From Deltaproteobacteria bacterium (GTDB taxonomy: Bacteria > Desulfobacterota > Desulfobacteria > Desulfobacterales > Desulfobacteraceae): a stretch of DNA of 64,000 nucleotides. The notes under the pieces are model-generated. The model ran no database searches. It was given only the letters and a program-made list of their open reading frames with translations, and was not told the DNA's origin. This document shows positions 8,238 to 61,532 of the stretch, piece after piece (the stretch's first letter is position 1; each line of letters starts with the position of its first letter). The position numbers and the translations under genes are program-made. The stretch lies in the NCBI GenBank assembly GCA_013151635.1, contig JAADHV010000118.1, positions 1-64,000 on the forward strand, in the 5' to 3' direction.

Positions 8238-9854
8238 CTACATTCTAAATACACCAAACCCATACTCCTGATCCCTGAGGGGAGCGTTCAGGGATGCAGA
8301 AATGGCCAGCCCCAATACATCCCTTGATTTTGCAGGGTCAACAATACCGTCATCCCACAGCTGGGACGTGCTGTAATAGGCATTGCCTTCTTTAAGCGCG
8401 GCCTCAATCACAGGTTTGTTTATAAAATTTATTTCTTCCTGGGTCATGCTTTTTTGGCCTGCTCTTTTGCGCTGGTCATTGGTAATGGAAATAAGCACGT
8501 CAGCGGCCTGGCTGCCTCCCATGACACCGATCTGGGCATTGGGCCACATCCACAGCAGCCTTGGTGAATAAGCCCTGCCGCACATGGCATAATTACCCGC
8601 GCCAAAAGAGGCACCCACAATCATGGTAAATTTGGGCACACTGCAGTTGGCAACTGCATTGACCATCTTATGCCCGTCTTTTGTAATCCCGGCCCGTTCA
8701 TAATCGCTTCCCACGATGAACCCGTTAATATTCTGCAAAAAAACAAGAGGAATTTTTCGCTTGTCGCAAAGCTGGATGAACTGGGTGGCTTTCTGGGCGC
8801 TCCTGGAAAAAAGAATCCCGTTATTGGCAAGGATACCCACAGGATATCCATGGATGTTTGCCCATCCCGTGACCAGGGTTTCACCATACATTTCCTTAAA
8901 TTCCAGGAACCGTGAACCATCCACAATCCTGGCAATCACTTCCCTGATATCATAGGGCTGGGAAAGATCCGGGCTGACAATACCATACAGCTCTTTTGCG
9001 TCATATATGGGTAATTCAGGCTCGGTCATTGAAAGCGTTGATTTTTCATTGCGCGGAAGATTTTTTGTTATTTTTCTGATAATCCTTATGGCATGGGCAT
9101 CATCCTGGGCATAATAATCAGACACACCTGAATCATTGCAGTGAAGCTCAGCTCCTCCTAGATCATTGGCCAGAACTTCCTCACCTGTAGCAGCTTTCAC
9201 CAGGGGTGGTCCGCCAAGGAAAATCGCGCCATGCTGTTTTACATGTACAATCTCATCACACATGGCCACTCCATAGGCACCCCCTGCTGTGCACAATCCC
9301 ATCACCCCGACAATCTGGGGAATGCCCATCTTTGATATTCTGGCCTGGTTAAAAAATATTCTTCCTCCATCATCGATATCCGGGAAGATTTCAGACTGAA
9401 GAGGCAGATAAGCACCTGCAGAATCCATAAGGGTAATTAAAGGCAGACGGTTTTCCATGGCAATGGCCTGGCACCTCAACGTTTTTTTAACTCCCATGGG
9501 ATATATGGCGCCGCCCTTAATCGTGGCATCATTGATAGAGATCAGGCATTCCTGGCCCTCAACCACGCCAATGCCGGCAATAAGCCCTGCTTTATGTATT
9601 TTCCCATCATACATATCCTTAGCTGCCAGAGGAGCGATTTCCAGAAACGGTGTGTTTTTATCAAGCAGCAGATCCAGCTTTTTTTTTGCCGGCAGCTTGC
9701 CTGACTCTTCATGCCGTTTCAAGGCTTTGGGGGACCGTTCATTAAAAGATTTGTCCAGCTCGTTTTCAAGATCTTTAACAAGGGCTGCCATCTCTTTATA
9801 ATTTTTCTGGTACTCCTCAGAACCCACATCAACTTTACTTTCAATTACATCCAT
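8238..9854 (-). CDS. Acyl-CoA carboxylase, carboxyltransferase subunit (methylcrotonyl/geranyl-CoA type)
   Basis: 538 residues from the ATG at 9854, which follows AAAGGATG; an upstream in-frame ATG at 9884 lacks a ribosome site. Both crotonase-like halves are present. The N half contains LITLMDSAGAYLPLQ and GGAYGVAMCDEIV followed by FLGGPPLVKAATGEEV, typical of the beta subunits of methylcrotonyl- and geranyl-CoA carboxylases. The C half contains GILANNGILFSRSAQKATQF and GASFGAGNYAMCGRAY. It transfers the carboxyl group from carboxybiotin to the gamma carbon of an unsaturated acyl-CoA. It is the first structural gene after the TetR regulator. Methylcrotonyl- and geranyl-CoA specificity cannot be separated by eye. 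Confidence 0.93.
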   Translation of the reverse strand: MDVIESKVDVGSEEYQKNYKEMAALVKDLENELDKSFNERSPKALKRHEESGKLPAKKKLDLLLDKNTPFLEIAPLAAKDMYDGKIHKAGLIAGIGVVEGQECLISINDATIKGGAIYPMGVKKTLRCQAIAMENRLPLITLMDSAGAYLPLQSEIFPDIDDGGRIFFNQARISKMGIPQIVGVMGLCTAGGAYGVAMCDEIVHVKQHGAIFLGGPPLVKAATGEEVLANDLGGAELHCNDSGVSDYYAQDDAHAIRIIRKITKNLPRNEKSTLSMTEPELPIYDAKELYGIVSPDLSQPYDIREVIARIVDGSRFLEFKEMYGETLVTGWANIHGYPVGILANNGILFSRSAQKATQFIQLCDKRKIPLVFLQNINGFIVGSDYERAGITKDGHKMVNAVANCSVPKFTMIVGASFGAGNYAMCGRAYSPRLLWMWPNAQIGVMGGSQAADVLISITNDQRKRAGQKSMTQEEINFINKPVIEAALKEGNAYYSTSQLWDDGIVDPAKSRDVLGLAISASLNAPLRDQEYGFGVFRM

Positions 9855-32590: not shown

Positions 32591-33034
32591 TTACGCTGCA
32601 TCTTTTTTTTGTTTTTGTTTTGCCACCCTAATGGGGCTTGGCCCTAGTTCTTTAATCTTAGCATCCATCTCAATGGAATACTGGGCAAATAAAGGGCCTT
32701 CGCCGGATGAAAGATTGTACATCTTCACGCGTTCTCCTCCTACACCGACCTTGTCAAGAATCTTTGCCGCCTGTTCAATCCGCTTTCTGGCCCTGAAATT
32801 TCCTTCATTATAGTGGCAGTCGCCTTCCATGCAGCCCACCACATATACGCCGTCAGCACCTTTTTCAAAGGCCCTCAAAATGTGAATAAGATCCACCTTT
32901 CCAGTACAGGGGACGCGGATTATCCTAAAATTTGCCGGGATTTTCAACCTCATGGAACCTGCCAGGTCCGCAGCCGAATACCCTCAGAAATTACAGCAGA
33001 ATGTCAAAATAACAGGTTGAAAGTCATTTTTCAT
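32591..33034 (-). CDS. mvhD: MvhD-type iron-sulfur subunit containing selenocysteine
   Basis: 147 residues when the in-frame UGA at 32984-32986 is read as selenocysteine. The start ATG at 33034 follows GGAGGGGG and overlaps the hdrA stop as ATGA. The sequence runs [16 protein letters not shown]-Sec-GYSAADLAGS; the family motif has Cys at the Sec position (CCNWC-Y). Later GCMEGDCHYNEGN holds the other conserved cysteines. MvhD normally links hydrogenase or another donor to HdrA through a [2Fe-2S] cluster. A conventional gene caller would start at the ATG at 32953 and lose the cysteine motif. No hydrogenase subunits (MvhA/G) are nearby, so MetVF is the likely partner. Confidence 0.92.
32954..32986 (-). 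promoter_or_regulatory. SECIS-like element after the mvhD UGA
   Basis: Fourteen bases after the UGA the minus strand folds as GGACC-TGGCA-GGTTCC: five pairs with one bulged U on the 3' side and a five-base apical loop containing GG. Distance, small loop with guanines and the bulged U fit bacterial SECIS elements that bind SelB. Based on visual folding only. Confidence 0.65.
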
Positions 33035-36000
33035 ATTACCCCCTCCAGCAAGGACTCTACCTTGCTGAGCAACTGATTATCTTCATACCAGTTCAGTTTA
33101 ATGGTTTTAGCAGGACATTCGGATGCACACACACCACATCCCTGACAAAGAGCAGGATCTATATAGCTGACACCCAATTCGTTTATAACCGGTACATTAT
33201 ATGGACATGACCTCACACAGACAAGGCAGGATGCACAATTTTCCTGGTTTACCTCTGCTGTTACCGCAGAAAGGGTCAATGACTCCTGGGAAAGGAATGT
33301 AGTTGCCCTTGATGCTGCCGCCATGGCCTGTGTAATGGTTTCAGTGATTAATTTTGGCCCGTGCGCCGTACCGCAGATAAAAATACCCTCTGTTGGTGCT
33401 TCAACAGGTCTCAGTTTCACATGGGCTTCCATGAAAAAGCCTTCTGCATTTCTGCCGGTTTTAATTATGGTTGCCAGTTCCTCGGTATCCGCGGCTTTAA
33501 CACCGGCGCTTAATACAACAAGATCGGCACTTGCTTCAACTTTCCGTCCCAGTACATGATCCGTGAAAATTACCGCCATTTTGCCGTTTTCACCATTGGT
33601 TACTTCAGGCGGGTTTTCAGGGTCAAACCGTGAAAAAATCACACCGAGATTTCTTGCTTTTGTATAAAATTCTTCAAGCATGGCATAGGTTCTTATGTCC
33701 CTGTAAAGAATAAATACATCCGTATTCTTGTTCCCTTCCTTTATGGCGATAGCATTCTTAACGGCATTCTGGCAGCAGATCCTTGAACAATTCGGATTCT
33801 GTTCATTTCTTGAACCAACGCACTGAATCATGATAACCCGATCCAGATCCCCGGCCTTTTTCTCCTCAATCATATCGGCAAGTTCAAGTTGAGTAACAAC
33901 AAGCTCACTTTCATTATACAAATATTCTTCGGGCTGATATTCTGTTGCACCGGTTGCCACAATCATGGCACCATGCTCAATCTTTCTTTCTTCCATTGAT
34001 GTGCCCACAAGGACTGTTGTATTAAAGTTGCCTTTATACCCTCCGAATCCCACAATTAATGCCTGCTTCAGAATTTCTATCTTATCATGATTTTCAACCG
34101 CATCTATAAGTTCTTTTACATAAGCCCTTATATCCTCTCCTTCAATGGTATGATAAAGCCTGTTTCCAAGGCCGCCCAGCCGGTTTTCCTTTTCAACCAG
34201 GGTAACTTTGTAGCCTTGATCCGCAAGCCCTTTTGCAGCAGTCATGCCGGCAACCCCGCCGCCAATAACCAATGCTTTATCAATGACCGAGATCCTTTTG
34301 TCATGCAAAGGCCCTAAAGTTGCAACCCTTGCCACGGCCATCCGAATCAGGTCTTTGGCTTTTGCAGTAGCTTTTTCAGGCTCGTGAAAATGCATCCAGG
34401 AATCCTGGTTCCTGATATTTGCCATTTCAAACAGGTATTTATTTAACCCGGCTTCTTCCAGGGTATCCATGAATATGCCTTCATGGGTTTTAGGTGTACA
34501 GGAAGCCACAACAACACGATTGAGCTTGTGTTCATCTATAAGTTCCTTAATGGAAACCTGGGTATCCTGGGAACAGGTAAAAAGATTTTCACCTGTATAA
34601 ACAACATTGGGAAGTGTCTTTGCATAATTTTCAACATCCTCAACATCAATCACCCCGGCAATATTAATGCCGCATTTGCAGATAAACACCCCGATTCTGG
34701 GCTCTTCACCCAGGACATCCCTTTCATCCGGCATGGCAAGTGTTTTTGTCTGCGTATGACGTGCCCCGGCAAGTTTTATCCCGGCAGCCGCGGCAGCCCC
34801 GCTTGCCTCGGTAACAGAAGAAGGAATGTCTTTGGGGCCCTGGAAAGAACCGGATACATACACTCCCGGCCGGGATGTCTGTAAAGGATTGAATGTCGGG
34901 GTTTTTACAAAATTATATTTATCCAGTTCAACACCTATTCTTTTTGCAAGTTCCACACTCTCTTCCGGGATGACAAGACCCACGGAAAGGATGACCATGT
35001 CAAAGACTTCCTCATGCATCTTACCTGTTTCGTCTGCATATTTTAAAATCAGGTTGTCGGTTCCAGGTTCTTCAATAACAGAATGTATCCTTGATTTCAC
35101 AAACCGCACGCCTTCCTGCTCTGCGGCCCTGTTATAATACTTTTCATAATCCTTGCCAAAGGTCCGCATATCCATATTAAATATGGCCGTGTCCAGCTCA
35201 GCTTCCGAATGTTCCTTTGCAATGGTTGCATCCTTTATGGCATACATACAGCAGACAGATGAACAATAGCCATTGCCGCACCTGTTGGTATCCCTTGAAC
35301 CGATGCATTGGAGCCAGGCAATTTTTCCAGGCTCTTTTTCATCTGAAGGCCGGACAAGATGGCCCATGGTCGGGCCGCCGGCACTTAAAATCCTTTCAAA
35401 CTCAAGGGATGTCATGACGTTTTTCGATCTCTTGTACATATAGATATCATCAAGCCCTGAAGGATCAAAGGTTGTGGCACCAGTGGTCATGATCACGGAT
35501 CCCACTTTCAGGTCTCTTATCTTTGGCTGTTCCTCATGGTTGACAGCTCCTGCAAGACAGGCATCAACACACTGGTAGCACTCAGAACAGATTCCGCAGG
35601 AAAGGCAGCGGGCAGCCTCTTTGTCAATAGCTTTTTTTGCAAGATCCAGGGTCACTTCCTTAAAATTACCTTTTCGTTCATCCATACTGATCTTGACAGG
35701 CTTTGCCCGTTCAATCCGGGGAACATCAAAAATATCAGGTTTTTCAAAATCCCAGGTTTTTTCCCGATTTTCTTTTAAATCTTTGTCATTAATAAACCGA
35801 TGCATGCTCTCGGCCGCGGTTTTCCCACTGGCAACAGCATCAACCACCGATTTAGGGCCGTAAAATGCATCACCGCCTGCAAATACCCAGTCAATCGGGG
35901 TCTGTAAAGTTACAGGATCCGCCTCAAGTCCGCCGGGCGGGGTTAACGCAATTCCTTCCCTGTCTGCAAACTCCAAAAGCCCCATCTGGCCAATGGCCAC

Positions 36001-37476
36001 TATAACAGTATCTGCTTCATAAGAAGTAAGCTTGCAATCATCGTATTGAGGGCGGAACCTCCCGTTTTCATCAAATACAGAGGTACATTCCTGGAACTCA
36101 ACTTCATCAAACTTTCCATCAATCCCGAGAAACCTTAAGGGCCCGAGGCTGTTAACAATTTTAACCCCCTCTTCAAGGGCTTCTTCAATTTCATAGTCCC
36201 AAGCAGGCATTTCATGGCGTTTTTCAAGGCAGACCATGGTTACATCATCCGAACCCAGCCTTCTGGCAGTAAGAGCCACGTCCACCGCCACGTTCCCGCC
36301 TCCGATCACCATGATCCTGCCGGTCAGTTTTCTGGCTTTCCCCATGGCAGCATCTCTCAGGAAATCAACTCCCTTAATGACACCTTCAAGGTCTTCCCCT
36401 TTGACTCCCAGGGCCCTGGAACCATGAAGGCCGGTTGCCATAAACAATGCGCTGTACCCGTCTTTTTTAAGACTTTCAAGGGTAATGTCCCTGCCAAATT
36501 CCACCGAGGTCCGGATATCAACGCCAAGCTTTTCAATTACCTCAATTTCCTTTGCCAGCCCGGCTTTGGGCAGCCTGTACTCAGGGATACCAACAGCCAT
36601 CATACCGCCTTTGACAGGCAATTTTTCAAATATGGTGACACTATACCCTTTTTGAGCCATGTAATAAGCGCAGGTCAGGCCGGCCGGGCCAGACCCCACA
36701 ACAGCCACTTTTTCATCGCGTTTTTCCGCAACCTCGGGAATAAATGTTTCATCGCTTTCAAGATCCAGATGTGCCAGGTACCTGTGAAGGTATTGGATGG
36801 CCAGGGGCTCGTCTGCATCTCCCCTTGTACATACTGATTCACAAGGGTGATGACAGACACGGCCGCAGGAGCCGGGAAACGGATGGTCTTTTTTAAACAA
36901 TTTCAGTGCTTGGGCATACTTTCCCTGGTTCATTAAGGCAATAAAGCCCTGGATACTCACATGGGCCGGGCAAGTGGCCTTACAGGGAGCCACAGACCGT
37001 TTGGAAATTCCATACCCGCCCGGTATGGCCTGTTCATACTGCTTAAAAATAGCTTTTCGCGGTGCAAGGCCCTCATTATGTTCACTGGGTATTTCCACAG
37101 GACAAACCTTGGTACATTCCCCGCATGAAGTACATTTCAATAAATCAACAAATCTTGGGTTCTCTTTTACACTTGCGGTAAAATTGCCTTCTTCTCCTTC
37201 AAGTCCAAGAAATTGTGTATTTGTCAACAACTCGATGTTCAGATGCCGGCCGACCTCGACCAGTTTAGGTGAGATAACTCACATGGTACAGTCATTAGTC
37301 GGGAACGTCTTATCCAGCCTTGCCATCATACCGCCAATGGCATAGGATTTTTCAACCAGATATACATAGTAACCTGAGTTGGCTAAATCTATGGCAGACT
37401 GCATCCCCGCGATTCCGCCGCCAAGGACCATGACAGAACCTGCAAGATCTTTTTTCAGTGTTGAATTCTGGGTCAT
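33031..37476 (-). CDS. hdrA: HdrA-like FAD/iron-sulfur electron-bifurcation subunit with GltD/NfnB-like insert, selenocysteine at residue 66
   Basis: One gene of 1481 residues if the UGA at 37279-37281 is read as Sec. The ATG at 37476 follows AGGAGG. Layout: N-terminal Rossmann start ([20 protein letters not shown]), then TFPTNDCTM[15 protein letters not shown], where HdrA has Cys or Sec; a [4Fe-4S] motif [12 protein letters not shown] at ~115; a glutamate-synthase-small-subunit/NfnB-like flavin domain at ~190-600 ([19 protein letters not shown]); a further Cys-rich motif at ~630; the rest of the first HdrA flavin domain to ~910; then a second HdrA module from ~925 ([26 protein letters not shown]) ending with two ferredoxin motifs at ~1414-1455. 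It would split electrons between high- and low-potential acceptors. HdrB/HdrC are absent here. Confidence 0.93.
37246..37281 (-). promoter_or_regulatory. SECIS-like element after the hdrA UGA
   Basis: Fifteen bases after the UGA the minus strand reads CTGGTC-GAGGTC-GGCCGG. The two outer hexamers pair (three G-C, one C-G and two G-U type pairs) around a six-base loop GAGGTC, very close to the GGUC-containing loop of the E. coli fdhF SECIS. Position and loop support Sec insertion. Based on visual folding only. Confidence 0.7.
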
Positions 37477-50179: not shown

Positions 50180-50692
50180 CTACCTGTTGTCTGAATACGG
50201 ATACCAGTCAGACTCTCTCAAACGGTCCACCTTTAATATCACAATTTCATATGTTCCTGTATTAAAGACAATTTTCCTGCCAAGTTCGCCTCCTGTATCT
50301 TCTGAAATAATTTTAATTTTTTTTTCACCTAAAACATTTCTGGCGGTTTTCAGGTTGTCATGGCCGATATCTCTTTTAGAATATTCAGGGTTAAACGCAC
50401 CGCCAAATATCTGAGCTTCCAGGTTTAAAATATCCGACCCGTTAGCTGCCATCATTCGAACCAGGGTCATAACAGCAATATTGCCATACAGCGCTGTTGT
50501 TTTTTCCCGGGTTTGAATATATGGGAAACAAAAATGGTTCATCCCGCCTGTTTTAAGGAATCTGTCGTACAGGCTGACAGCTACGGATGATCCAAGCACC
50601 GTTGAAATTGTCGTGGGCCTGTCCGGCAGATATATAAAGCCGGGTCTCAAAAAATAATCTCTTGTAACAGGTTTTTCGTGGGCATGTGTCAT
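50180..50692 (-). CDS. cheD: CheD-like chemoreceptor deamidase homologue with Ser in place of the catalytic Cys
   Basis: 170 residues, complete CheD fold: VLGSSVAVSLYDRFLKTGGM then NHF, LEAQIFGGAF, and SEDTGGELGRKIVFNTGTYE. In characterised CheD the active site is the Cys in GLGSCVAV plus a His in the G-x-x-H motif. Here the Cys position is Ser36 (codon TCC), while His53 remains. CheD deamidates Gln/Glu sites of methyl-accepting receptors and binds CheC. With Ser the protein may be a binding-only module or have altered chemistry. No other che genes of the classical type are in the window, but the divergent neighbour operon contains a CheY receiver fusion. Confidence 0.85.
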   Translation of the reverse strand: MTHAHEKPVTRDYFLRPGFIYLPDRPTTISTVLGSSVAVSLYDRFLKTGGMNHFCFPYIQTREKTTALYGNIAVMTLVRMMAANGSDILNLEAQIFGGAFNPEYSKRDIGHDNLKTARNVLGEKKIKIISEDTGGELGRKIVFNTGTYEIVILKVDRLRESDWYPYSDNR

Positions 50693-50864: not shown

Positions 50865-51815
50865 ATGAAGGATAATCCGTATTTTCGTATCGGGCATCTA
50901 AAAATTGTTGACCACCTTATCCTGGGAATTGCAGGTCTTCAACTTAAAAAAAATGGAATAAACCTTACACGTTCAACCCTTGAAACCTTTGCCATGAATT
51001 CATGGAATCAGGTCTGTGACGGTTTAAAAGAAGGGGATATCAACGGGGCCTTTATCACTGCACCTTTGGCAATGGATCTTTTTGCAGCAGGCCTTGATAT
51101 ACGGATTTTAATGTTTGCCCACAGATCCGGCAGCGTGATAGTCAAGAATAAAATATCCGGCACAAATAACATTGCCGGTTTCAAAGGCAAAACTTTTCTT
51201 GTTCCTTCGGAGCTTAGTATTCAAAATATGCTCCTCCACAAATTTTTATCTTCTGCCGGATTAAAATTCGGTACCCACGACGATATCAAGGCTGATGTAG
51301 TACGAGAAGTTGCAAACCCTTTTTTGATGACCGAAATGTTGTTGAATGATCAGGATCACGACATTGCAGGATTTGCCGTTGCAGAACCATTTGGCAGTGA
51401 AGCGGTTCAAAAAGGGATTGTACAAAAAGTCTTTACGTCGCATAGTTTGTGGAAAGACCATCCATGCTGTGTTTTTGTACTGGATGTGTCCCTTATAAAT
51501 AACTATCCTGAATCAGTAAAAGAAATCGTGGCTTTATTTATTAAAACCGGACAAGTCATTGAGGAGACCGGGGGCGATGCAGTTCTCCCTTTGGCACACC
51601 TGTTTTTCGACCAGGAAAAACAGGTAATCCGTCAAGCAATTTTAGAAAGTGATATAAGCTTTAACCCGGCCTTATTGGTACCGGACATTGAAGCCTTGAA
51701 TATTATCCGGGACTATATGACAGACTCAATGGGGGTCTTAAAAAAGAAAATCAATGTAAACAGTCTTGTGGATCGTTCTTTTATATTAGATGCAATATCG
51801 GAAACCAGCCATTGA
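50865..51815 (+). CDS. Substrate-binding-like protein without signal peptide (NrtA/SsuA/ThiY type fold)
   Basis: 316 residues. It starts directly with the first strand of the fold, FRIGHLKIVDHLILGIAGLQ, and has no signal peptide or lipobox, so it should stay in the cytoplasm. Family parts: GDINGAFITAPLAMDLFAAG, HDIAGFAVAEPFG and WKDHPCCVFVLD (H199-P-C-C). It is clearly related to the C-terminal part of the receiver fusion at 54621 (shared DH-LG, AP-AMDLFA, AGF-VAEP, HPCC), and more distantly to the exported protein at 52576. It may be a cytoplasmic sensor of the imported ligand. Its stop overlaps the start of the ATPase gene. Confidence 0.82.
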   Translation: MKDNPYFRIGHLKIVDHLILGIAGLQLKKNGINLTRSTLETFAMNSWNQVCDGLKEGDINGAFITAPLAMDLFAAGLDIRILMFAHRSGSVIVKNKISGTNNIAGFKGKTFLVPSELSIQNMLLHKFLSSAGLKFGTHDDIKADVVREVANPFLMTEMLLNDQDHDIAGFAVAEPFGSEAVQKGIVQKVFTSHSLWKDHPCCVFVLDVSLINNYPESVKEIVALFIKTGQVIEETGGDAVLPLAHLFFDQEKQVIRQAILESDISFNPALLVPDIEALNIIRDYMTDSMGVLKKKINVNSLVDRSFILDAISETSH

Positions 51816-52579
51816 AAATAGAAATTGAAAAACTGACAAAAATTTTCAATAAATCGAAAAAATCCGATCATGTCGTACTGAAAGACATCAGTTTTTCGAT
51901 TGATGATGGTGATTTTGTTATTATCCTTGGTGAATCCGGTTGTGGGAAGACTACCCTTTTAAATATGCTGGCAGGCCTTGAGCGCCCGACATCGGGAAAA
52001 ATTCATGTTGACGGGCAGGAAGTTAGAGGGATACACCCTTCCCGGTCCATGCTTTTCCAGCAGCCCACACTTATCCCATGGTTAAATGTAAAAGAGAATG
52101 TGGCTTATGGATGCAGATTGAGAGGGGACACAGAAAAACTTGATTACAGGGTCAATCAATTTCTTGAAATAATGGGAATTGCAGGATTTTCAGATGCAAA
52201 ACCCAGTCAACTGTCCCTTGGCATGGCCCAGAGGGCCTGCCTTGCCCGTGCCCTGGTCGGGCACCCGGATGCACTTTTACTGGATGAGCCATTTGCATCC
52301 CTTGATACCTTTACCCAGGCCCATATCCAGGAAGAGCTGGTAAACTTATGGCTTTCCGAACAATTTACCGCTGTATTTGTCACCCATGACATTGATGAAG
52401 CCATAAGGCTTGGGAACAAGATCATTCTTCTGGCAGGAGAGCCGGCCAATATAAAAGATATTTTTAAAATTAACGAAAAATACCCAAGAGACAGGAACAA
52501 CGTTAAATTCAAGGAGATACGCACAAAAATTCTTGAACGGTTTAAAAATTCATACCTGGCCAAAAGGAGTCTTTTATGA
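51812..52579 (+). CDS. ABC transporter ATP-binding protein (nitrate/sulfonate/taurine type)
   Basis: 255 residues, probably starting at the TTG at 51812, which overlaps the preceding stop codon as TTGA. Walker A is GESGCGKTT, the Q-loop FQQPTLIPWL, the signature LSLGMAQRACLARAL (Leu in place of the usual Gly of LSGG), Walker B DALLLDEPFASLD and H-loop VTHDIDEA. The sequence is of the SsuB/TauB/NrtD class. It energises the permease at 53741. Its stop overlaps the ATG of the exported binding protein (ATGA). Confidence 0.93.
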   Translation: MKIEIEKLTKIFNKSKKSDHVVLKDISFSIDDGDFVIILGESGCGKTTLLNMLAGLERPTSGKIHVDGQEVRGIHPSRSMLFQQPTLIPWLNVKENVAYGCRLRGDTEKLDYRVNQFLEIMGIAGFSDAKPSQLSLGMAQRACLARALVGHPDALLLDEPFASLDTFTQAHIQEELVNLWLSEQFTAVFVTHDIDEAIRLGNKIILLAGEPANIKDIFKINEKYPRDRNNVKFKEIRTKILERFKNSYLAKRSLL

Positions 52580-53754
52580 TGCAGGATCTAATAAAGCCCA
52601 ACTCAAGACGTCAATTTCTAAAAACTGTTGCTGCAGCCTGTTCAGGCCTGTTTCTTCCAGGCAGCGTCAAAGCCTTTGCAAAACCTGAAACCATTCGTCT
52701 GGGGTATCTCCCCATCACCGACGCAACACCTTTGCTTGTGGCCCACGGGCTTGGCTATTTTTCAGAAGAAGGACTTGCCGTTGACAGGCCGGTTATGGTA
52801 AGATCATGGAATATACTTATAGAATCATTCCTGGCAGGTAAATTTAACTTCACTCATATGCTCTTTCCAATTCCGGTCTGGATGAGGTTTAAACAAAAGG
52901 TACCGATAAAAGTGCTTGCCTGGGATCATACCAACGGGAGTGCTGTGACAGTGAAGGGCGATTCTGATATTTACAGTTTCAAAGACCTTGGCGGCAAACA
53001 GATTGCTGTCCCTTCCTGGTATTCCATGCATAACCTTATCATACAGATGGGTATCCGCTCACAGGGGTTAAAACCCGTGATAAAACCACAGTCGGTAAAA
53101 CTTAAAAAGCATGAGGTCAACCTGCTTATTCTTCCACCTCCGGATATGCCCACGGCCCTTTTAGGAAATAAAATTGACGGGTATATTGTTGCAGACCCGT
53201 TTAATGCCCTGGCCCAGATAAAATTTAATGCCAGGATCATGCGGTTTACAGGTGATATTTGGAAAGATCATCCCTGCTGTGTCATTGTTGCCAATGAAAA
53301 TTTCATAAATAAAAACAATATATTAATACAAAAAGCCATGAATGCAATTGTCCGGGCCCAGGACTGGTGTATCAAGAACCCCAAAGAAACCGCCCATCTC
53401 TTAAGCCGTGACGGCGAAGGGTATCTGCCTGTCTCAAAGACTGTCTTACTGAAAGTATTTGAAAATCCGGGGAAAAACGAAGTTAAACACCCGGACTGGA
53501 ATGTTGAAAGGATAGGATTCCAGCCATTTCCATTTCCTTCAGCTACAAAATTTATTATTGACCGGATGAAAAAGACCCTTGTGGAAGGAAATACTCTCTT
53601 TCTTAAAAAATTAGATACACAAAGAGCTGTCGAAAATCTTGTGGATGATACCTTTGTAATGAACACACTCGATGAAATGGGTGGTATTAAAAGATTTTGT
53701 AATTGTGATATTACCAAACCGTACACAAGGCAAGAAACTATTGAAATCAATTAA
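52576..53754 (+). CDS. ABC transporter substrate-binding protein with Tat signal
   Basis: 392 residues. N-terminus NSRRQFLKTVAAACSGLFLP is a twin-arginine signal, so this is the periplasmic receptor. The mature protein (IRLGYLPITDATPLLVAHGL, GYFSEEGLAVDRP) belongs to the NrtA/SsuA/TauA-like family; YIVADPFNALAQIKF and IWKDHPCCVIVANENFI (H232-P-C-C) follow. The HPCC segment is shared with the two cytoplasmic relatives in this operon. Residues ~340-392 contain an extra tail. Ligand unknown: nitrate, bicarbonate, sulfonate, aliphatic or pyrimidine-precursor compounds are known for the family. Confidence 0.92.
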   Translation: MMQDLIKPNSRRQFLKTVAAACSGLFLPGSVKAFAKPETIRLGYLPITDATPLLVAHGLGYFSEEGLAVDRPVMVRSWNILIESFLAGKFNFTHMLFPIPVWMRFKQKVPIKVLAWDHTNGSAVTVKGDSDIYSFKDLGGKQIAVPSWYSMHNLIIQMGIRSQGLKPVIKPQSVKLKKHEVNLLILPPPDMPTALLGNKIDGYIVADPFNALAQIKFNARIMRFTGDIWKDHPCCVIVANENFINKNNILIQKAMNAIVRAQDWCIKNPKETAHLLSRDGEGYLPVSKTVLLKVFENPGKNEVKHPDWNVERIGFQPFPFPSATKFIIDRMKKTLVEGNTLFLKKLDTQRAVENLVDDTFVMNTLDEMGGIKRFCNCDITKPYTRQETIEIN

Positions 53755-54571
53755 TCGATTCATTTACCGAGACCCCAAGCAGGCCGGGCTGAACGCTGTC
53801 TTTGGCAACCGTGATTTCGGCTGGAAGTTTGAAATAATAGGACTTATAGGTTTTATTTTGTTGTGGATGGCAGCGGCGCAATTTATTTTCACAAGGCATG
53901 AGTTTGTGCAATTCCATGGCTTTTTACCCGGCCCGACATTTAAGGCACTTTTGGCAGCCTCTCAGGAAAGCCGGTTCTGGGTATCAGTATTTGCAAGCCT
54001 GAAAAGAATCCTCATCGGGATATCCATTGCAGCTGTTATCGGTGTTCCCACAGGTATTTTAGTTGGTTTTTATCCAAGGCTCCGGAGCCTTTCATATTCT
54101 CCCATTCAGTTTGTAAGAATGATCAGCCCGCTGTCCTGGATGCCCATTGCATTGCTTTTATTTGCAAGTTTTGAGTCTGCTGTTTATTTTTTGATTGTAA
54201 TGGCCACAATTTGTCCTATAATACTGAATACAACGATTGGTGTTTTAAATATTAATCCCCAATGGATTAAAATGGCATTGAACCAGGGGGCAAGCAATTT
54301 TCAACTGATAAGAACGATTGTCATCCCGGCATCTCTCCCTTATATGCTGACGAGCCTCAGGCTGGCCCTGGGTGTAGCATGGATTGTACTTGTTCCGGCG
54401 GAATTTCTTGGTGTTTCAAGCGGACTTGGCTATTTGATAAACGATGCAAGGGATACCATGGAATATGATAAACTTATGGCAATGATTATTGCAATCGGTA
54501 TTCTGGGTTTTCTTTTGGACAGGATTATCCAGAAACTCCAGCATACGTTCAGTTGGTCATGGAATGAATAA
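53741..54571 (+). CDS. ABC transporter permease (nitrate/sulfonate/taurine type)
   Basis: 276 residues if it starts at the TTG at 53741, which is preceded by AAGG and overlaps the end of the binding-protein gene; an in-frame ATG at 53672 would give 299 residues with a non-hydrophobic extension. About six transmembrane helices. Typical SsuC/TauC parts: SLKRILIGISIAAVIGVPTG, SYSPIQFVRMISPLSWMPIA, the EAA-like loop ALNQGASNFQLIRTIVIPAS, and GVAWIVLVPAEFLG. It is the single membrane subunit, presumed to form a homodimer with the ATPase at 51812. Confidence 0.93.
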   Translation: MKSINRFIYRDPKQAGLNAVFGNRDFGWKFEIIGLIGFILLWMAAAQFIFTRHEFVQFHGFLPGPTFKALLAASQESRFWVSVFASLKRILIGISIAAVIGVPTGILVGFYPRLRSLSYSPIQFVRMISPLSWMPIALLLFASFESAVYFLIVMATICPIILNTTIGVLNINPQWIKMALNQGASNFQLIRTIVIPASLPYMLTSLRLALGVAWIVLVPAEFLGVSSGLGYLINDARDTMEYDKLMAMIIAIGILGFLLDRIIQKLQHTFSWSWNE

Positions 54572-54620
54572 TTTAAAATAATAATATACAGTTTATATAC
54601 AAACTTTAAGGAGTGTTTCT

Positions 54621-55994
54621 ATGGCGGTAAATCCAAACATTAAAATTGTTGTGGCCGATGACTCAGGAACCATGCGCATCATGTTCAAACAGATATTAAA
54701 CAAAGCCGGTTTTGAAAACCTTGTTATGGCTGTTAATGGTGTTGACGGGCTTGAAAAAGTAAAGGTGGAAAAACCCGATCTTGTCATCAGCGACTGGAAT
54801 ATGCCGCAAATGGACGGCCTTGAGTTCTTAATTGCATTAAGAAAGATGGATGATTTCAAAAATCTGCCGTTTATTATGGCGACCGCCCAATCTGATAAAG
54901 GGCAGCAAATCGCCATCATGGAAGCCGGCGGCAACGCCCATGTCCCCAAACCTTTTGATGAGGGACAGATAAGTCGCGCCATAGAAAAAGCCTTTTCAGA
55001 CGAAAAAGATGATGACAAGCCCAAACAAAAATCAAGACAGGTTATCGGAGGAAGGGTTGAACTTAATGTCGCCCATATCCAGATTACAGACCATCTGGCT
55101 TTGGGTGCCCTGAAACACAGGATAGAACAGGGTGATGTCGAACCTGAATATTTTGATCTAAGCACCAGCCTTAAGGCAGGGTGGAATCCCATACAGGAAG
55201 GCCTTGAAAACGGTGAACTCGACTGCGCCTTTGTACTGGCCCCTATTGCCATGGACCTTTTTGCCTATGATTCCCCGATCAAGCTTGTTTTATATGCTCA
55301 TAAAAACGGGAGCACCTTTATAAGATCCCGGCATTATGATCACAGGTTTGATTCCCTGCAAAGTTTCTACAAATATAAAGTTGTGGACATCCCGCATAAA
55401 ATGTCTGTTCACCATATGCTTGCCCACCAGTTTTTAAAGGAACTTGGTCTTAAACCCGGCGTCCCGGGGAAAAAAGCCATCAACGTTCGCTTCGAAGTTG
55501 TTCCCCCCGTTAAAATGCCGGGAATCATGAAAGACAATGAAGATGTGGCAGGATTTATGGTGGCCGAACCTGTTGCCACCAAAGCCATTGTAAATGAAAT
55601 CGGCAACCTTGAGTTTTACTCTGCCGGCCGGTGGGAAAACCATCCATGCTGTATTGTTGCCATGCAGGAAGACTTTATCCAGAAACACCCTGAAGCAGCC
55701 CAGGAATTTGTGTCCCTGCTCGTGGAAACAGGAGAATATATTGAAAACGATAAAATAAGGGCTGCGAGAATTGCCGTAAGTTTCCTTGACCCTAAAGGAA
55801 AGCTCGGGCTGAATCCGGAAGTTTTGAAAAACGTATTCTCCCAGCCTCAAGCTATCAGGTGGGACGGGCTTTTACCGGCAGCAGAAGATCTTGATAAAAT
55901 CCAACGATATATGTATGATGTCATGGAAATCGGCAAAATCATTGATCTTGATAAATTTATTGAAATCAGCTTTGCAAATGAAGCATATAGATAA
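54621..55994 (+). CDS. CheY-like receiver fused to a substrate-binding-protein domain
   Basis: 457 residues, preceded by AAGGAG. Residues 1-127 are a full receiver very close to CheY: acid pair D13-D14, phospho-acceptor D58 within SDWNMPQMDGLEFL, T88 and K110. A charged linker (DEKDDDKPKQKSRQ, ~127-140) leads to residues ~145-457, a complete NrtA/SsuA-like binding fold (VAHIQITDHLALGALKHRI, CAFVLAPIAMDLFAYDS, VAGFMVAEPVATKAIV, H341-P-C-C). No signal peptide or membrane segment: the ligand-binding fold is cytoplasmic. The partner proteins encoded around it (importer, signal-less binding protein, HPt) suggest that phosphorylation is coupled to intracellular ligand. It could be a response regulator with a ligand-binding output or a ligand-gated phosphate sink. 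Confidence 0.9.
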   Translation: MAVNPNIKIVVADDSGTMRIMFKQILNKAGFENLVMAVNGVDGLEKVKVEKPDLVISDWNMPQMDGLEFLIALRKMDDFKNLPFIMATAQSDKGQQIAIMEAGGNAHVPKPFDEGQISRAIEKAFSDEKDDDKPKQKSRQVIGGRVELNVAHIQITDHLALGALKHRIEQGDVEPEYFDLSTSLKAGWNPIQEGLENGELDCAFVLAPIAMDLFAYDSPIKLVLYAHKNGSTFIRSRHYDHRFDSLQSFYKYKVVDIPHKMSVHHMLAHQFLKELGLKPGVPGKKAINVRFEVVPPVKMPGIMKDNEDVAGFMVAEPVATKAIVNEIGNLEFYSAGRWENHPCCIVAMQEDFIQKHPEAAQEFVSLLVETGEYIENDKIRAARIAVSFLDPKGKLGLNPEVLKNVFSQPQAIRWDGLLPAAEDLDKIQRYMYDVMEIGKIIDLDKFIEISFANEAYR

Positions 55995-56013
55995 TTTTTA
56001 GATGGGGGTTTCA

Positions 56014-56568
56014 ATGAAAATTACTGACCCGGATGTTATTAAAAACGGTGAAAAGGACCTGATCGAAGCAGTAAAGGACGATCTTGACCTTGATGCAGTC
56101 AAGGAAGTTTTAAAAAAAAGGATTTCCTCAACTTCTCTTTCCTCTAATGGTGGTGAAATTATTGTCCACAAAAACAAAATTGCCTTTAGACTGGATTTTG
56201 ATTTGAATCTAAGCGGCAGCCTTATGTTTGACAGGCAAGGCAATTACATTCCTGAAACAGATGAACAAAATTTTGTATCCGAGGACTTGGATCTTGATGA
56301 TATAAATATCAGTCAAACCCTGGAAGAAGCAAGTCCGCAGACATCCATGGATGATACCAGTGACACACAGGTTGAAGAGGAAGAAAGCCTTGATGAAAAC
56401 GAGCTGGAGCAGCCCCTCGACAGTCTGAACGAAGAACTCGATATAGGGCTGCCTGAATATGATCTTGAGGACGAACTTGACCAGGAAAGTGACGATCTGA
56501 TTGATGATGACATCAATGATATCCTGAAAGAAAGCCAGGATTTCTGGGAACAAAAAAAAGATTCATAA
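56014..56568 (+). CDS. Acidic protein of unknown function in the receiver/HPt operon
   Basis: 184 residues from the ATG at 56014 (behind GGGGG; an ATG at 56002 would add four residues). Residues ~1-85 look folded: KITDPDVIKNGEKDLIEAVK, then an amphipathic helix, and a beta-rich part (GGEIIVHKNKIAFRLDFDLN, SGSLMFDRQGNYIPE). Residues ~90-184 are extremely acidic with Asp/Glu runs and DL-DD-I repeats, probably disordered. I do not recognise a family. It lies 8-20 bp after the receiver fusion and about 30 bp before the HPt gene, so it belongs to the same unit and may be a scaffold or adaptor. Confidence 0.75.
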   Translation: MKITDPDVIKNGEKDLIEAVKDDLDLDAVKEVLKKRISSTSLSSNGGEIIVHKNKIAFRLDFDLNLSGSLMFDRQGNYIPETDEQNFVSEDLDLDDINISQTLEEASPQTSMDDTSDTQVEEEESLDENELEQPLDSLNEELDIGLPEYDLEDELDQESDDLIDDDINDILKESQDFWEQKKDS

Positions 56569-56599
56569 TATTGTCCCACCATAAAGGAGTATTTGCATC

Positions 56600-56956
56600 A
56601 TGCCGGAAAATGACAATAGCAATGAAGTTATCAATATCAAAGAATTAAACGAAATCATGGATGATGATACGGAACTCATCCATGAATGCTTTGTCGATTT
56701 TATTCAGGAATGGCCAAAGCTATATGTTGAAATCAAAGGCGCTGTCCTTGAAAAAGACACCCACAAATTAGATGAATCCTCCCATAAGCTGAAAGGAACA
56801 TTAAGATATCTTGCAGCCGGTGCAGCAGCGGATGCGGCATATGCGCTTGAATCAGCCGGGAAAAAAAATGATCTGGAAGGTGTGGAAAAAAAACTTTTAA
56901 CCTTGAAAAACGAATGTCAAAGATTAGTTGACTATATTAACAATTTTAATCAATAA
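56600..56956 (+). CDS. Histidine phosphotransfer (HPt) domain protein
   Basis: 118 residues, a stand-alone HPt four-helix domain. The phosphorylatable His is H62 in ESSHKLKGTLRYLAAGAAAD, matching the AHxLKGxxxxLG consensus; the first helix pair is LIHECFVDFIQEWPKLYVEI. AAGGAG lies upstream. Stand-alone HPt proteins shuttle phosphoryl groups between receivers. The only receiver in this operon is the binding-protein fusion at 54621, so that is the obvious partner; the kinase is not encoded here. The gene converges with nth. Confidence 0.9.
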   Translation: MPENDNSNEVINIKELNEIMDDDTELIHECFVDFIQEWPKLYVEIKGAVLEKDTHKLDESSHKLKGTLRYLAAGAAADAAYALESAGKKNDLEGVEKKLLTLKNECQRLVDYINNFNQ

Positions 56957-56975
56957 TCTTTTATTTTTGATGATT

Positions 56976-57611
56976 TTATACCTTTCCTTTTGCCTGGCAG
57001 ATTTCAAATAGCGGACAAACCTCACAAAGCGGTTTTTTTGCATCACAGATTTCCCTGCCAAAATAAATAAATTGCAGGGACAAATCACTCCAGGCCGTCT
57101 CAGGTATGATCTCCATTAATTCATACTCAACTTTCACAGGATCAAGGCCTTGTGTAAGCCCAAGCCGCCCGGCAATTCTTAGAACATGGGTATCCACAAC
57201 TATCGTCTGGTGGCCAAAAGCCGCAGATAAAACAACATTGGCAGTCTTTCTGCCCACTCCCGGCAATTTTATAAGTTTGCTGATATCTTCTGGCACAACC
57301 CCCTTATATTCCCCGAGCAATGCTGTGGCACATGCTTTAATGTTTTTAGCTTTATTATTATAAAAGCCTGTGGAATAAATTATTTTCTTAATCTTATCCA
57401 GAGGGGCCATGGCCAAAGCCCCGGGGTCAGGGTATTTTTCAAACAGTTTTTTTGATACCTTATTGACCTGGCGATCCGTACACTGGGCTGACATAATGGT
57501 GGCAATGAGCAGTTGAAAAGGCGTTTCATGTTCAAGCTGGGTCTTGACATAAGGGTATCTGTCTTTTAATATTTCAAGAATTGTTTTTATTTTTGATGCA
57601 CTTAGTTTCAT
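56976..57611 (-). CDS. nth: Endonuclease III
   Basis: 211 residues from the ATG at 57611, the family length; the frame is open further upstream but overlaps the divergent gene. Helix-hairpin-helix and catalytic Lys in LPGVGRKTANVVLSAAFG, catalytic Asp in VVDTHVLRIAGRLGL, and the C-terminal [4Fe-4S] loop C-x6-C-x2-C-x5-C (CDAKKPLCEVCPLFEIC). It removes oxidised pyrimidines from DNA by glycosylase/AP-lyase action. It diverges from the thiouridylase-like gene with 13 bases between starts. Confidence 0.96.
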   Translation of the reverse strand: MKLSASKIKTILEILKDRYPYVKTQLEHETPFQLLIATIMSAQCTDRQVNKVSKKLFEKYPDPGALAMAPLDKIKKIIYSTGFYNNKAKNIKACATALLGEYKGVVPEDISKLIKLPGVGRKTANVVLSAAFGHQTIVVDTHVLRIAGRLGLTQGLDPVKVEYELMEIIPETAWSDLSLQFIYFGREICDAKKPLCEVCPLFEICQAKGKV

Positions 57612-58683: not shown

Positions 58684-59169
58684 TTAATAATAAATCATCT
58701 TTTCCCAGAATTCTTTTTCATCCTTGTCCCAGTCAGGTCCGAATTTTTCTTCACAGAATAATGAAAGTCTCTTGTACCAGCTTGTCCAGGGATTTTTCCC
58801 TTCTTTTTTTGCCTTTAATACATCAACAAGAAATGCTTCAATATTAATCATTTCTTCTTTTGGTATATATGAGCAGGCACCGCCAAGATAGGATTTTTTA
58901 ATATTATCCGGGCTGAGTGCATGCGCTGTAAGCATCACTGTTACTACATTTTTTTTATTAGCGGTTTCCAACAGCTGATATCCGTCAACACCCATGATAT
59001 CAAGAACAGCTATATCAAATTCCCGGGTTTCAAGAAGATTGTTTGCTTCTTCAAAGGTCTTGGCCCTGACAGTCGAACACATATCGAGCAATTCTTCCAA
59101 AGAATCAAGAACATCTGGTTCATCATCAACAATCAGAACTTTTTTATTTTCCAGACTGATATTTGACAT
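58684..59169 (-). CDS. Response regulator, receiver domain with short C-terminal tail
   Basis: 161 residues. Receiver at 10-120 with D15/D16, phospho-acceptor D57 (FDIAVLDIMGVDGYQLL), T81 (VMLTAHALS) and K104 (SYIPKEEM). The C-terminal 40 residues (KNPWTSWYKRLSLFCEEKFG, PDWDKDEKEFWEKM) are aromatic and charged with no DNA-binding motif; this tail recurs in small receiver proteins of Desulfobacterota. It lies 215 bp after the PAS histidine kinase in the same direction and is its likely partner. Confidence 0.9.
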   Translation of the reverse strand: MSNISLENKKVLIVDDEPDVLDSLEELLDMCSTVRAKTFEEANNLLETREFDIAVLDIMGVDGYQLLETANKKNVVTVMLTAHALSPDNIKKSYLGGACSYIPKEEMINIEAFLVDVLKAKKEGKNPWTSWYKRLSLFCEEKFGPDWDKDEKEFWEKMIYY

Positions 59170-59384
59170 GTTTCCTTCCGATCAATTTAAGGTTATGGTA
59201 CAGGTCATAGTTAAGTTAAGATTACGGGCAATTCTTCCTGGGCTAAATGCTTTACATTTAAACGCCCTTTGCAATACTCTCTTATTATAAAACATATACG
59301 TAAAGATTCAATACCATATTTTTTAAAGGCGGGTTTAAAAACAATCTCAATTGCATAGTTTAACTTTACTTAAAAGACAAATTC

Positions 59385-61468
59385 TCATAGTTTTAATCGA
59401 ATGGAAAATTTAGATCCTGCCCCTTTATCGGAATCAATACTGATTTTTCCCCCATGATCCTTTACAATGATAAAATAGGAGACTGCCAGGCCCAGCCCGG
59501 TACCTTTTTCTTTTCCTTTTGTGGTGAAAAAGGGTTCAAACAACCGCTTTCTTGTTTTTTTATCCATGCCAGGGCCATTGTCCTCTATTTCAACGCATGC
59601 CATATCATCCGATTTATAGATCCTTAAATAAAACTTTGATTTTTTTTGGATTTCCTGCATGGCCTCGGCACCGTTTTTTAAAATATTCCAAAAAACCTGT
59701 TGAATCTTACTTTCGTCACAAAGAACAGCTGGTACACTTGTATCATAGTCCCGTATAATTTCGATATGCTTAAAATCATAATCTGTTTTCAAGTCATAAT
59801 CACTGCAAGCAATTTCTATTGTTTTATCCATAAGTTCCGATAACCGGTGTGGAATTTTCTTTGACTCGCTTTTCCTTGCAAACGACAGCATATTCCTAAT
59901 GATTTTTGCTGCGCGTTTACCTGAGTCATTGATGTTTTTTGCAAGACTTAGTATTTCACGTTTTTCCATGTAGGCATGTATGTCACCCATGCTTACCCCC
60001 ACTTGCCCTGCAACTTTTTTATTGGCGGGCAAACGGCTTGATAACCGGTTGGCCATAACCTGGGCGTTTTGCATCATGCCGGCCAGAGGATTATTTATTT
60101 CATGGGCCATCCCGGCTGCCAGACTCCCCACGGAAAGCATTTTTTCCGACTGAATCATCATTCCTTCAATATGCACCTGTTCTGTCACATCATCAATGCG
60201 GATAACCGCACCATCCACATTGTTACCGGAAAGGGGATAAACAGTCAGGTTCTCATAGCGGATCTCACTTTTATTCTCATTTGGTATCTTTGTCTCTTCA
60301 AGAATTTTGTTATTTTTTATTGCCTCTTTGATCTTTCCCATTTCATCATTAAGCCTTGGGAAAACCATTGATATATCCTGGCCCACAGCTTCCCGTGCTT
60401 TGAACCCGCGGTATATTGTTCCGCCTTGAAATTCCAATGGGTAACCTGGCCCTTCTTATTAATTCCAATCAATACAGATGGCATGGAATTAATAATATTC
60501 GATAAATAATTTCGAAGCCGGAAGACTTCTTTCTCGGCTTTTACATGCTGTGTAATATCCCTGACAACAGCCTGCAAAACGTATCGGCTGTTGATCTCAA
60601 CGCGAGTTAAGGTTACATTGGCATCAAACCCTCTTGCAAAAAGACCTGCGAACTTCCAGTAAAATCTTTGATTTTCCCCACCATAGGCACGGGTGATTTT
60701 TTCTTGAAATCCTTTCCGGGATCTCGAGCCATCCGGTTGAATTTCCGGGAAAAAATTAAAAATTGAATTCCCCAGCATATCCTCATGAGAACAATTAAAA
60801 ATTTTTAATGAAAACGCATTACAGTCGATCAGTCGATCATAGTCCATTAAAAAAAATGCGTCGCCTGCATTTTTGAATAAAGTTCTGTATTTTTCTTCAT
60901 TTCTCCTTGATTCTTTCTGGGCATTGATCAGTTTGGTCACATCCTGGAATGTTTCTATGGCCCCGATCACATTTGCATTGTCATCTGTCAGAGGGCACGC
61001 ATTGGCAAGAAGCCACATGCCGTTTCTGCCGAATCCCGGGAAAAAATCCTGGGATTCATATGCGCCTTCTTTCAGGGTTGATTTATGCAATGTAGTATAT
61101 TTAGTATTATTCTTATAATGGCTCCAAAATTTTTCTTCATCAGCACCATTAATGATCAAGTCTGCCATTACCGGTCGTTTTTTATTATAGAACGCCTGCC
61201 ATTGATTATTGGTTCCGATAATATCTTTGGCTTTAATTCCTGATATTTTTTCAAGGGTCTGGTTCCAGTAAATAACTTTATGGTCCTTGTCTAAAATAAA
61301 AGTGGGAATGGGATTGCCGTTTACTATGTTGACCAGCAGGTTCTGGGCGGACAAAAAATTTTTACGGGCGATTTCAAGCTGATTTTTTATTTGTAACTGA
61401 CGGGCTGCCTTTTTCTCCAATTGTTGAATCTTTAGTTTTAACTCTTTAATTGTTTTGCTTTCTTCCAT
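59385..61468 (-). pseudogene. PAS-domain sensor histidine kinase, frameshifted
   Basis: About 690 residues when two frames are joined. Start at the ATG at 61468 (GAGG upstream). After a coiled-coil N-terminus come three PAS domains (about 55-180, 195-320 and 325-430 by position) with no transmembrane segment, then HisKA (AAGMAHEINNPLAGMMQNAQ, phospho-His) and HATPase (N-box NILKNGAEAM, DNGPGMD, GTGLGLAVS). The break is in the third PAS: one frame reads HWNFKAEQYTAGS and the homologous continuation KAREAVGQDISMVFPRL is in the other, crossing near 60399-60410. One inserted or lost base in GCGGGTTCAAA explains it. It is a soluble kinase, so it senses a cytoplasmic signal. Confidence 0.88.
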
Positions 61469-61532
61469 GACTCCTCGAAATATAAAACACAAGTCAACAG
61501 ATTTAAAATTTAAAGTACCAAACTAGCGTGGC

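Follow-up and report, generated by a model that had tools for sequence, protein, structure and literature searches.

The locus raises the question of why a CheY-like receiver should be joined, in a single chain, to a substrate-binding fold of the importer type, and which pathway such a protein serves. The gene lies within a 64,000-nucleotide stretch of a Desulfobacteraceae genome (the window, i.e., the whole stretch that was analysed), and its product is called REC-SBP here. The original prediction, made from the sequence alone, suggested a response regulator that reads an intracellular ligand, or a ligand-gated phosphate acceptor, encoded with the matching importer.

Domains, fold and conservation of REC-SBP

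Pfam placed Response_reg at residues 9-121 (E 4e-24) and NMT1_2 at residues 147-382 (E 2.3e-26) of REC-SBP, both over the gathering cut-off, and found no CheW domain in the window protein. An AlphaFold2 model with 45 aligned rows as input had a mean pLDDT of 89.2 and a pTM of 0.82. When the model was compared with solved structures by VIA-align, its binding part superimposed on 3un6 (Z 37.0, 2.0 Å over 287 residues), NrtA 2g29 (Z 35.3, 2.1 Å over 297 residues), CmpA (Z 34.5-34.9) and the cytosolic regulatory domains of CmpC and NrtC (8wm7, 9uai and 9uak; Z 32.7-34.3), while its receiver part superimposed on CheY3 3to5 (Z 22.5, 1.0 Å over 124 residues). The proposed fusion of a receiver to an NrtA/SsuA-like fold is borne out by both profiles and by these fits, and the binding part is predicted to form a complete NrtA-type fold. 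In line with the claim that a signal peptide is missing, REC-SBP starts with the receiver itself, so no room is left for one. The binding domain therefore has the fold and profile of the NMT1_2 class but not its periplasmic export.

The best solved relative of the binding domain, 3un6, is by its title the zinc-bound binding component of a Staphylococcus aureus importer; it differs in lacking a receiver and is only ~21% identical, with an aligned segment that keeps the vicinal CC pair and the H, M and AEP positions. A metal as the REC-SBP ligand, taken from that title, is only a guess. The SsuA-family, taurine and SaoX matches in NCBIfam were all sub-threshold; TIGR01728 reached 47.9 bits against a cut-off of 163.5, so no ligand name can be assigned from the NCBIfam subfamilies.

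The receiver is intact, as originally described: D14, D58, T88 and K110 were invariant in 45 of 45 aligned receiver rows, and residue 13 was D in 32 rows and E in 13. Residue 107, which we take to be the position of the CheY switch Tyr, was His in 32/45, Phe in 9/45 and another residue in 4/45 rows. In the binding domain, 66 positions were at least 95% conserved across 50 REC-SBP rows, and at 30 of these the same residue occurred in more than 80% of 41 Tat proteins, i.e., relatives of the exported binding protein encoded by the same operon. This agreement, which includes the HPCC motif, upholds the claim that the fusion is encoded with a matching importer. The shared positions include W188, H227, G230, S231, P258, S262, H264, P296, M299, P317, W338, H341, P342, C343 and C344, which by this sharing are likely to be ligand-site residues; ten of them (H227, P258, S262, P296, M299, W338, H341, P342, C343 and C344) stood at 1.00 over the 50 rows, and H264 and W188 at 0.98. 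REC-SBP and the Tat proteins differed at H158/A, H259/S and H269/Q.

These residues bear on whether the cytosolic fold is a relic, a protein-protein module that has lost ligand binding. In favour of a relic, the stand-alone cytosolic paralogues are looser (C343/C344 in 59%/56% of 41 rows, so that each is missing in about 40%, and H264 replaced by Q in 66%). In REC-SBP, however, the putative ligand-site residues are not lost, contrary to what would have refuted the original prediction. Over the 39 loci with all parts, the cytosolic binding domain had the highest mean identity to the window (86.0%), ahead of the receiver (80.3%), the ATPase (76.5%), the permease (72.8%) and the Tat protein (69.1%), and it was the best conserved of the four binding-protein and importer parts in 38 of 39 loci. 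We consider a relic very improbable.

The operon and its occurrence in other genomes

The genes on the plus strand run in the order stand-alone cytosolic binding protein, ABC ATPase, Tat-type binding protein, permease, REC-SBP, orf7 and Hpt (Table 1). Gaps are small or negative, with 4-base overlaps at 51812 and 52576 and 8 bases between REC-SBP and orf7. The N-terminal SRRQFLK of the exported protein is, we assume, a Tat-type motif. The permease is listed from its first in-frame start, and several homologues begin ~70 bases later. No terminator-like site turned up on the plus strand from 51214 to 57100 in a pattern scan, which says little because the terminator count of the scan was below that of shuffled sequence (5 versus 7.3). 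CheA and MCP genes are absent from the operon, and none of the operon proteins scanned with Pfam has an ANTAR or other DNA-binding match.

Table 1. Genes and domains of the REC-SBP locus (positions in the window)
Feature	Position	Strand	Evidence and remarks
Divergent CheD relative (CheD')	50180..50692	-	Pfam CheD 4e-19; GSS instead of GSC
Stand-alone binding protein without signal peptide (SBPcyt)	50865..51815	+	Pfam NMT1_2 5.5e-24; N-terminus
ABC importer ATPase	51812..52579	+	Pfam ABC_tran; TTG start, 4-base overlap with preceding gene
Exported binding protein, Tat-type N-terminus SRRQFLK	52576..53754	+	Pfam NMT1_2 5.7e-43
ABC importer permease	53672..54571	+	Pfam BPD_transp_1; first in-frame start
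REC-SBP fusion protein	54621..55994	+	457 aa, ATG start; Pfam, AlphaFold2, fold alignment
CheY-like receiver domain	54645..54983	+	Residues 9-121 (D13, D14, D58, T88, K110); Pfam and conservation
NMT1_2/NrtA-type binding domain	55053..55991	+	Residues 145-457, including H341-P342-C343-C344 (HPCC)
orf7	56002..56568	+	~90-aa N-terminal domain, acidic linker, C-terminal peptide DDDI.DILKES..FWE; no Pfam match
Hpt phosphotransfer protein	56600..56956	+	118 aa; Pfam Hpt 4.9e-10

Near the operon, the window also encodes a single receiver (58684-59169) and a PAS/HisKA kinase region (59385-61492) split over two overlapping frames, 59385-60437 and 60317-61492; this copy may be frameshifted, since its relative at L012 is one 586-aa frame. 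Elsewhere in the window, a 1399-aa ORF (33031-37230) carries repeated pyridine nucleotide-disulphide oxidoreductase and 4Fe-4S domains.

A scan of genome contigs identified 62 distinct loci in other genomes that encode a relative of the binding domain. Receiver and binding domain share one frame at all of them except L059, where the receiver lies in another frame, most likely through a MAG error; contig ends truncate the REC-SBP copies of L061 and L066. With 62 loci elsewhere encoding the family, the fusion is neither chance nor artefact, and an assembly join or frameshift as its source was ruled out by its recurrence in loci from other genomes. At E 1e-30, the binding-domain profile matched 63 of 86 genomes of the window's family and 28 of 395 in an even phylum sample. 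Judged by the length and position of the frame, 21 of these 28 genomes had a match of the REC-SBP type, namely 19 whose frames span 645-734 aa, the window genome itself and one with a cut frame (G078); the other seven had only stand-alone or exported relatives. Two occurrences outside the phylum, each on a single short contig, could be binning errors: L050, from a Spirochaetales MAG (3.8-kb contig), and L051, from a KSB1 MAG. In a genome-wide profile search, the L050 copy had one TAG inside the matched stretch, at its very end.

A tree of 82 rows was rooted on the Tat proteins and built by a quick method with support from SH-aLRT alone; long branches were flagged by the program in the exported and stand-alone rows. 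All 49 REC-SBP rows formed one clade (SH-aLRT 100), which was joined by the stand-alone cytosolic binding proteins (67 rows, SH-aLRT 100), with the other exported proteins outside. By this topology, the cytosolic branch probably had a single origin among exported binding proteins, and the binding domain probably acquired its receiver once. The window type (14 rows, support 90) was sister to a CheW-bearing group (35 rows, support only 81) that includes two rows labelled REC+SBP, L060 and the cut L061.

The window's own genome (L067:7478-8416 and 8424-9830) and L043 (9281-10594 and 10601-11539) each have a further stand-alone cytosolic binding protein, which forms a pair with a large protein; the large partner has weak MerR or Recombinase matches.

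Chemotaxis links among fusions and neighbours

CheW was the commonest extra domain on REC-SBP. Among 82 distinct binding-domain sequences in the loci examined, 49 were REC+SBP and 31 REC+SBP+CheW, the remaining two being one SBP+CheW whose receiver lies in a different frame and one REC+SBP+CheA-like; in the 395-genome phylum sample, all 20 frames of 645-734 aa, from 19 genomes, were REC-SBP-CheW. The CheA-like fusion (L064) comes from a genome with six family matches. The five others are a REC-SBP-CheW, two REC-SBP, a kinase with the order REC-DUF3369-HisKA-HATPase-REC-SBP (L151:521-3703), and a REC-SBP-HATPase_c_2-STAS protein (L152:3753-5996) that adjoins a CheA gene with Hpt, CheW and receiver.

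Gene order gave further links. At L043, REC-SBP closes a run of CheW, CheA, CheD, HDOD, CheX, CheB and CheD' genes; at L046 it is flanked by CheA-like genes; at L133, REC-SBP-CheW lies amid four MCP genes with CheW, CheB, CheA and CheD; and at L052 an MCP gene (MCPsignal 5.2e-44) stands directly upstream of the family gene. MCP, CheA, CheB, CheD and CheW genes were absent from the fetched flanks of 17 of the 20 REC-SBP-CheW genes of the phylum sample, only L114 and L133 having chemotaxis genes close by and L130 an MCP piece ~7.6 kb away. The neighbour counts are raw, so what carries the chemotaxis argument is the fusions together with L043, L046 and L133. The window genome itself encodes FliM and four CheA-type genes (H-kinase_dim in three, CheA-type domains in a fourth). 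Within a chemotaxis cluster at L141, CheW and MCP genes flank a gene (6884-7900) for an exported, Tat-type relative of the binding protein.

Of the loci in which no CheW or CheA part was recognised, 42/49 had a permease gene at most 400 bases upstream (at L042 the distance was 481 bases). An orf7 relative followed in 42 of the 47 with enough sequence, Hpt was found in 14/43, and CheD' occurred within 6.5 kb upstream in 22 of the 31 with that much sequence, being missing in 9. The importer genes directly upstream would suit a feedback role, in which the cytosolic binding domain, on sensing solute that has been imported, would inhibit or tune the ABC transporter while the receiver provides another input. 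A probable precedent exists in the C-terminal regulatory domains of NrtC and CmpC (9uak, 9uai, 8wm7), which are close in fold and are likewise cytosolic NrtA-type domains associated with an importer of this class; they differ in being fused to the ATPase and lacking a receiver, whereas the REC-SBP operon has its ATPase as a separate gene. The NrtC domain has been discussed as a possible nitrate sensor, and its truncation rendered uptake insensitive to ammonium (PMC6603209). Yet L043, L046, L049 and the REC-SBP-CheW genes read have no importer directly upstream (at L116, L117 and L127, ABC genes lie in other parts of the flank), transporters are not targets of CheW, CheA or STAS outputs, and no ATPase fusion occurred in the family frames read; importer feedback is in our view unlikely.

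CheD' shares the Pfam CheD profile with CheD but has Ser or Gly in place of the Cys of GSC, presumably the catalytic residue. Among 24 readable copies, the window's included, 23 had Ser after GS and one (L043) had Gly; L026 was unreadable there. Cys stood at this position in five of five other CheD genes (L041, L043:3928, L134:8582 of the window's own genome, L133 and L147), including the distant match of L041 (32% identity). With this Cys replaced, CheD' does not qualify as a CheD glutamine deamidase. At L043, the CheD' orthologue (6903-7502) directly precedes REC-SBP. For Bacillus subtilis, it has been argued that CheD matters more through its binding to CheC and receptors than through its enzyme activity (PMC3513319), which makes a catalytically dead CheD plausible as an adaptor.

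The AlphaFold2 model of orf7 was poor (pLDDT 60.7, pTM 0.20). Its acidic linker varies in length, and its C-terminal peptide is nearly invariant, resembling CheY-docking peptides, namely the start of FliM from the same genome (SQDEVDSLLDGLD) and also, we believe, the CheZ tail; by this resemblance it is possibly a receiver-docking tail. The tail pattern was present in 20/22 aligned orf7 rows and in 51/1210 control ORFs of the fetched loci, other or same. Of these 51, 34 were orf7-like by FW; the other 17 include one orf7 copy (L035) and at least one unrelated oxidoreductase (L131). The tail is conserved, yet it is weak as a functional argument. L049 has a distant orf7 copy in a different orientation. 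Altogether, the chemotaxis context, i.e., CheD', Hpt and the CheW and CheA fusions, is the strongest clue to function.

Known relatives and a proposed mechanism

CheV is an adaptor that combines CheW and a receiver in one chain. The REC-SBP homologues are similar in carrying receiver and CheW in one soluble protein, with a predicted phosphorylation site in the receiver (45/45 rows); they differ in that the receiver is N-terminal and separated from CheW by an entire binding fold, and CheW is missing from the window protein. Closest in idea to REC-SBP-CheW is CheWS of Treponema denticola, a cytosolic small-molecule sensor on CheW in the chemotaxis array, called by its authors the first characterised CheW-fused chemotaxis sensor (PMC10653840); its sensor is a CheR-like SAM domain, without receiver or importer operon. 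This pairing of sensor and CheW is absent from the window protein and present in its sister group. The same source mentions 30 undescribed CheW architectures (Fig. S10), among which REC-SBP-CheW may be found. In the literature searched, no title or abstract describes REC-SBP or REC-SBP-CheW, and the terms "substrate-binding" and "periplasmic" do not occur in the text of PMC10782961.

The original prediction took a cytosolic binding fold to be out of the ordinary; precedents are, however, the NrtC/CmpC domains and NasS, a cytosolic NrtA-like protein that holds the receiver-bearing NasT until nitrate releases it (PMC3795266). NasS-NasT and AmiC-AmiR resemble REC-SBP in that a relative of binding proteins reads an intracellular ligand in the cytosol and acts through a receiver-bearing partner; they are two proteins with an ANTAR RNA-binding output (PMC3795266), whereas REC-SBP is one chain with a predicted phosphorylatable receiver, chemotaxis-type neighbours and no ANTAR in the scanned operon proteins. 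A comparable circuit, in which the ligand-bound domain frees or masks the receiver and Hpt and a histidine kinase form a phosphorelay acting on gene expression rather than chemotaxis, would draw on the dissociation of NasS from NasT upon nitrate (PMC3795266), the Hpt gene of the operon, the kinase and single receiver nearby (58684-61492), the L151 kinase that ends in REC-SBP, and L152 with its HATPase_c_2 and STAS. It would be at odds with the scanned operon proteins, none of which has an ANTAR or DNA-binding domain, and with CheW as the commonest extra domain, and it would leave CheD' without a role; we regard it as distinctly unlikely. In none of NasS, CheWS and NrtC does a single chain unite a receiver, a binding fold and CheW. 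The REC-SBP fusion is real and conserved, and belongs with the cytosolic binding-protein sensors and the CheW/CheV-type adaptors. The original reading as an intracellular-ligand regulator stands as far as a soluble receiver/binding protein encoded with an importer is concerned; it overlooked the chemotaxis context.

On balance, and with modest confidence, we favour a role for REC-SBP as a soluble ligand sensor in the cytosol whose signal enters a chemosensory (CheA) pathway. Its binding domain would derive from a binding protein of the importer type and would read an imported solute in the cytosol, presumably the cargo of the importer in the same operon. CheA or the operon Hpt may donate phosphate to the receiver, which, once phosphorylated, would set the gain of the sensor or its contact with a partner, much as the CheV receiver is thought to do. 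In the sister group, the output would be the fused CheW, itself seen in the sequence, seating the sensor in the CheA array; in the window lineage, which has no CheW, contact may be made through the linked CheD', which without its catalytic Cys may retain receptor binding alone, and perhaps also through the docking-like tail of orf7. The cell could thereby adjust swimming, or another CheA output, to solute actually taken up.

More tentatively, and short of an even chance in our judgement, REC-SBP might be a portable two-key input module, its keys being phosphate and the intracellular solute, that plugs into CheW, CheA, a histidine kinase or anti-sigma/STAS and, in the window lineage, into a receptor-binding pseudo-CheD. 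This reading includes a new class of soluble chemoreceptor, with chemotaxis tracking import success and not outside concentration.

Chemotaxis is usually taken as sensing of the outside through membrane receptors. A family that keeps an importer-type binding domain in the cytosol, joined to a receiver and often to CheW, would link imported nutrient directly to the motor. As a catalytically dead CheD that accompanies the family, CheD' offers an independent handle that makes a receptor-binding, non-enzymatic role of CheD testable, and the genome of L064, with its six family matches on several outputs, allows the same input to be compared across outputs. If the module is indeed portable, the family would constitute a new class of soluble chemoreceptor.
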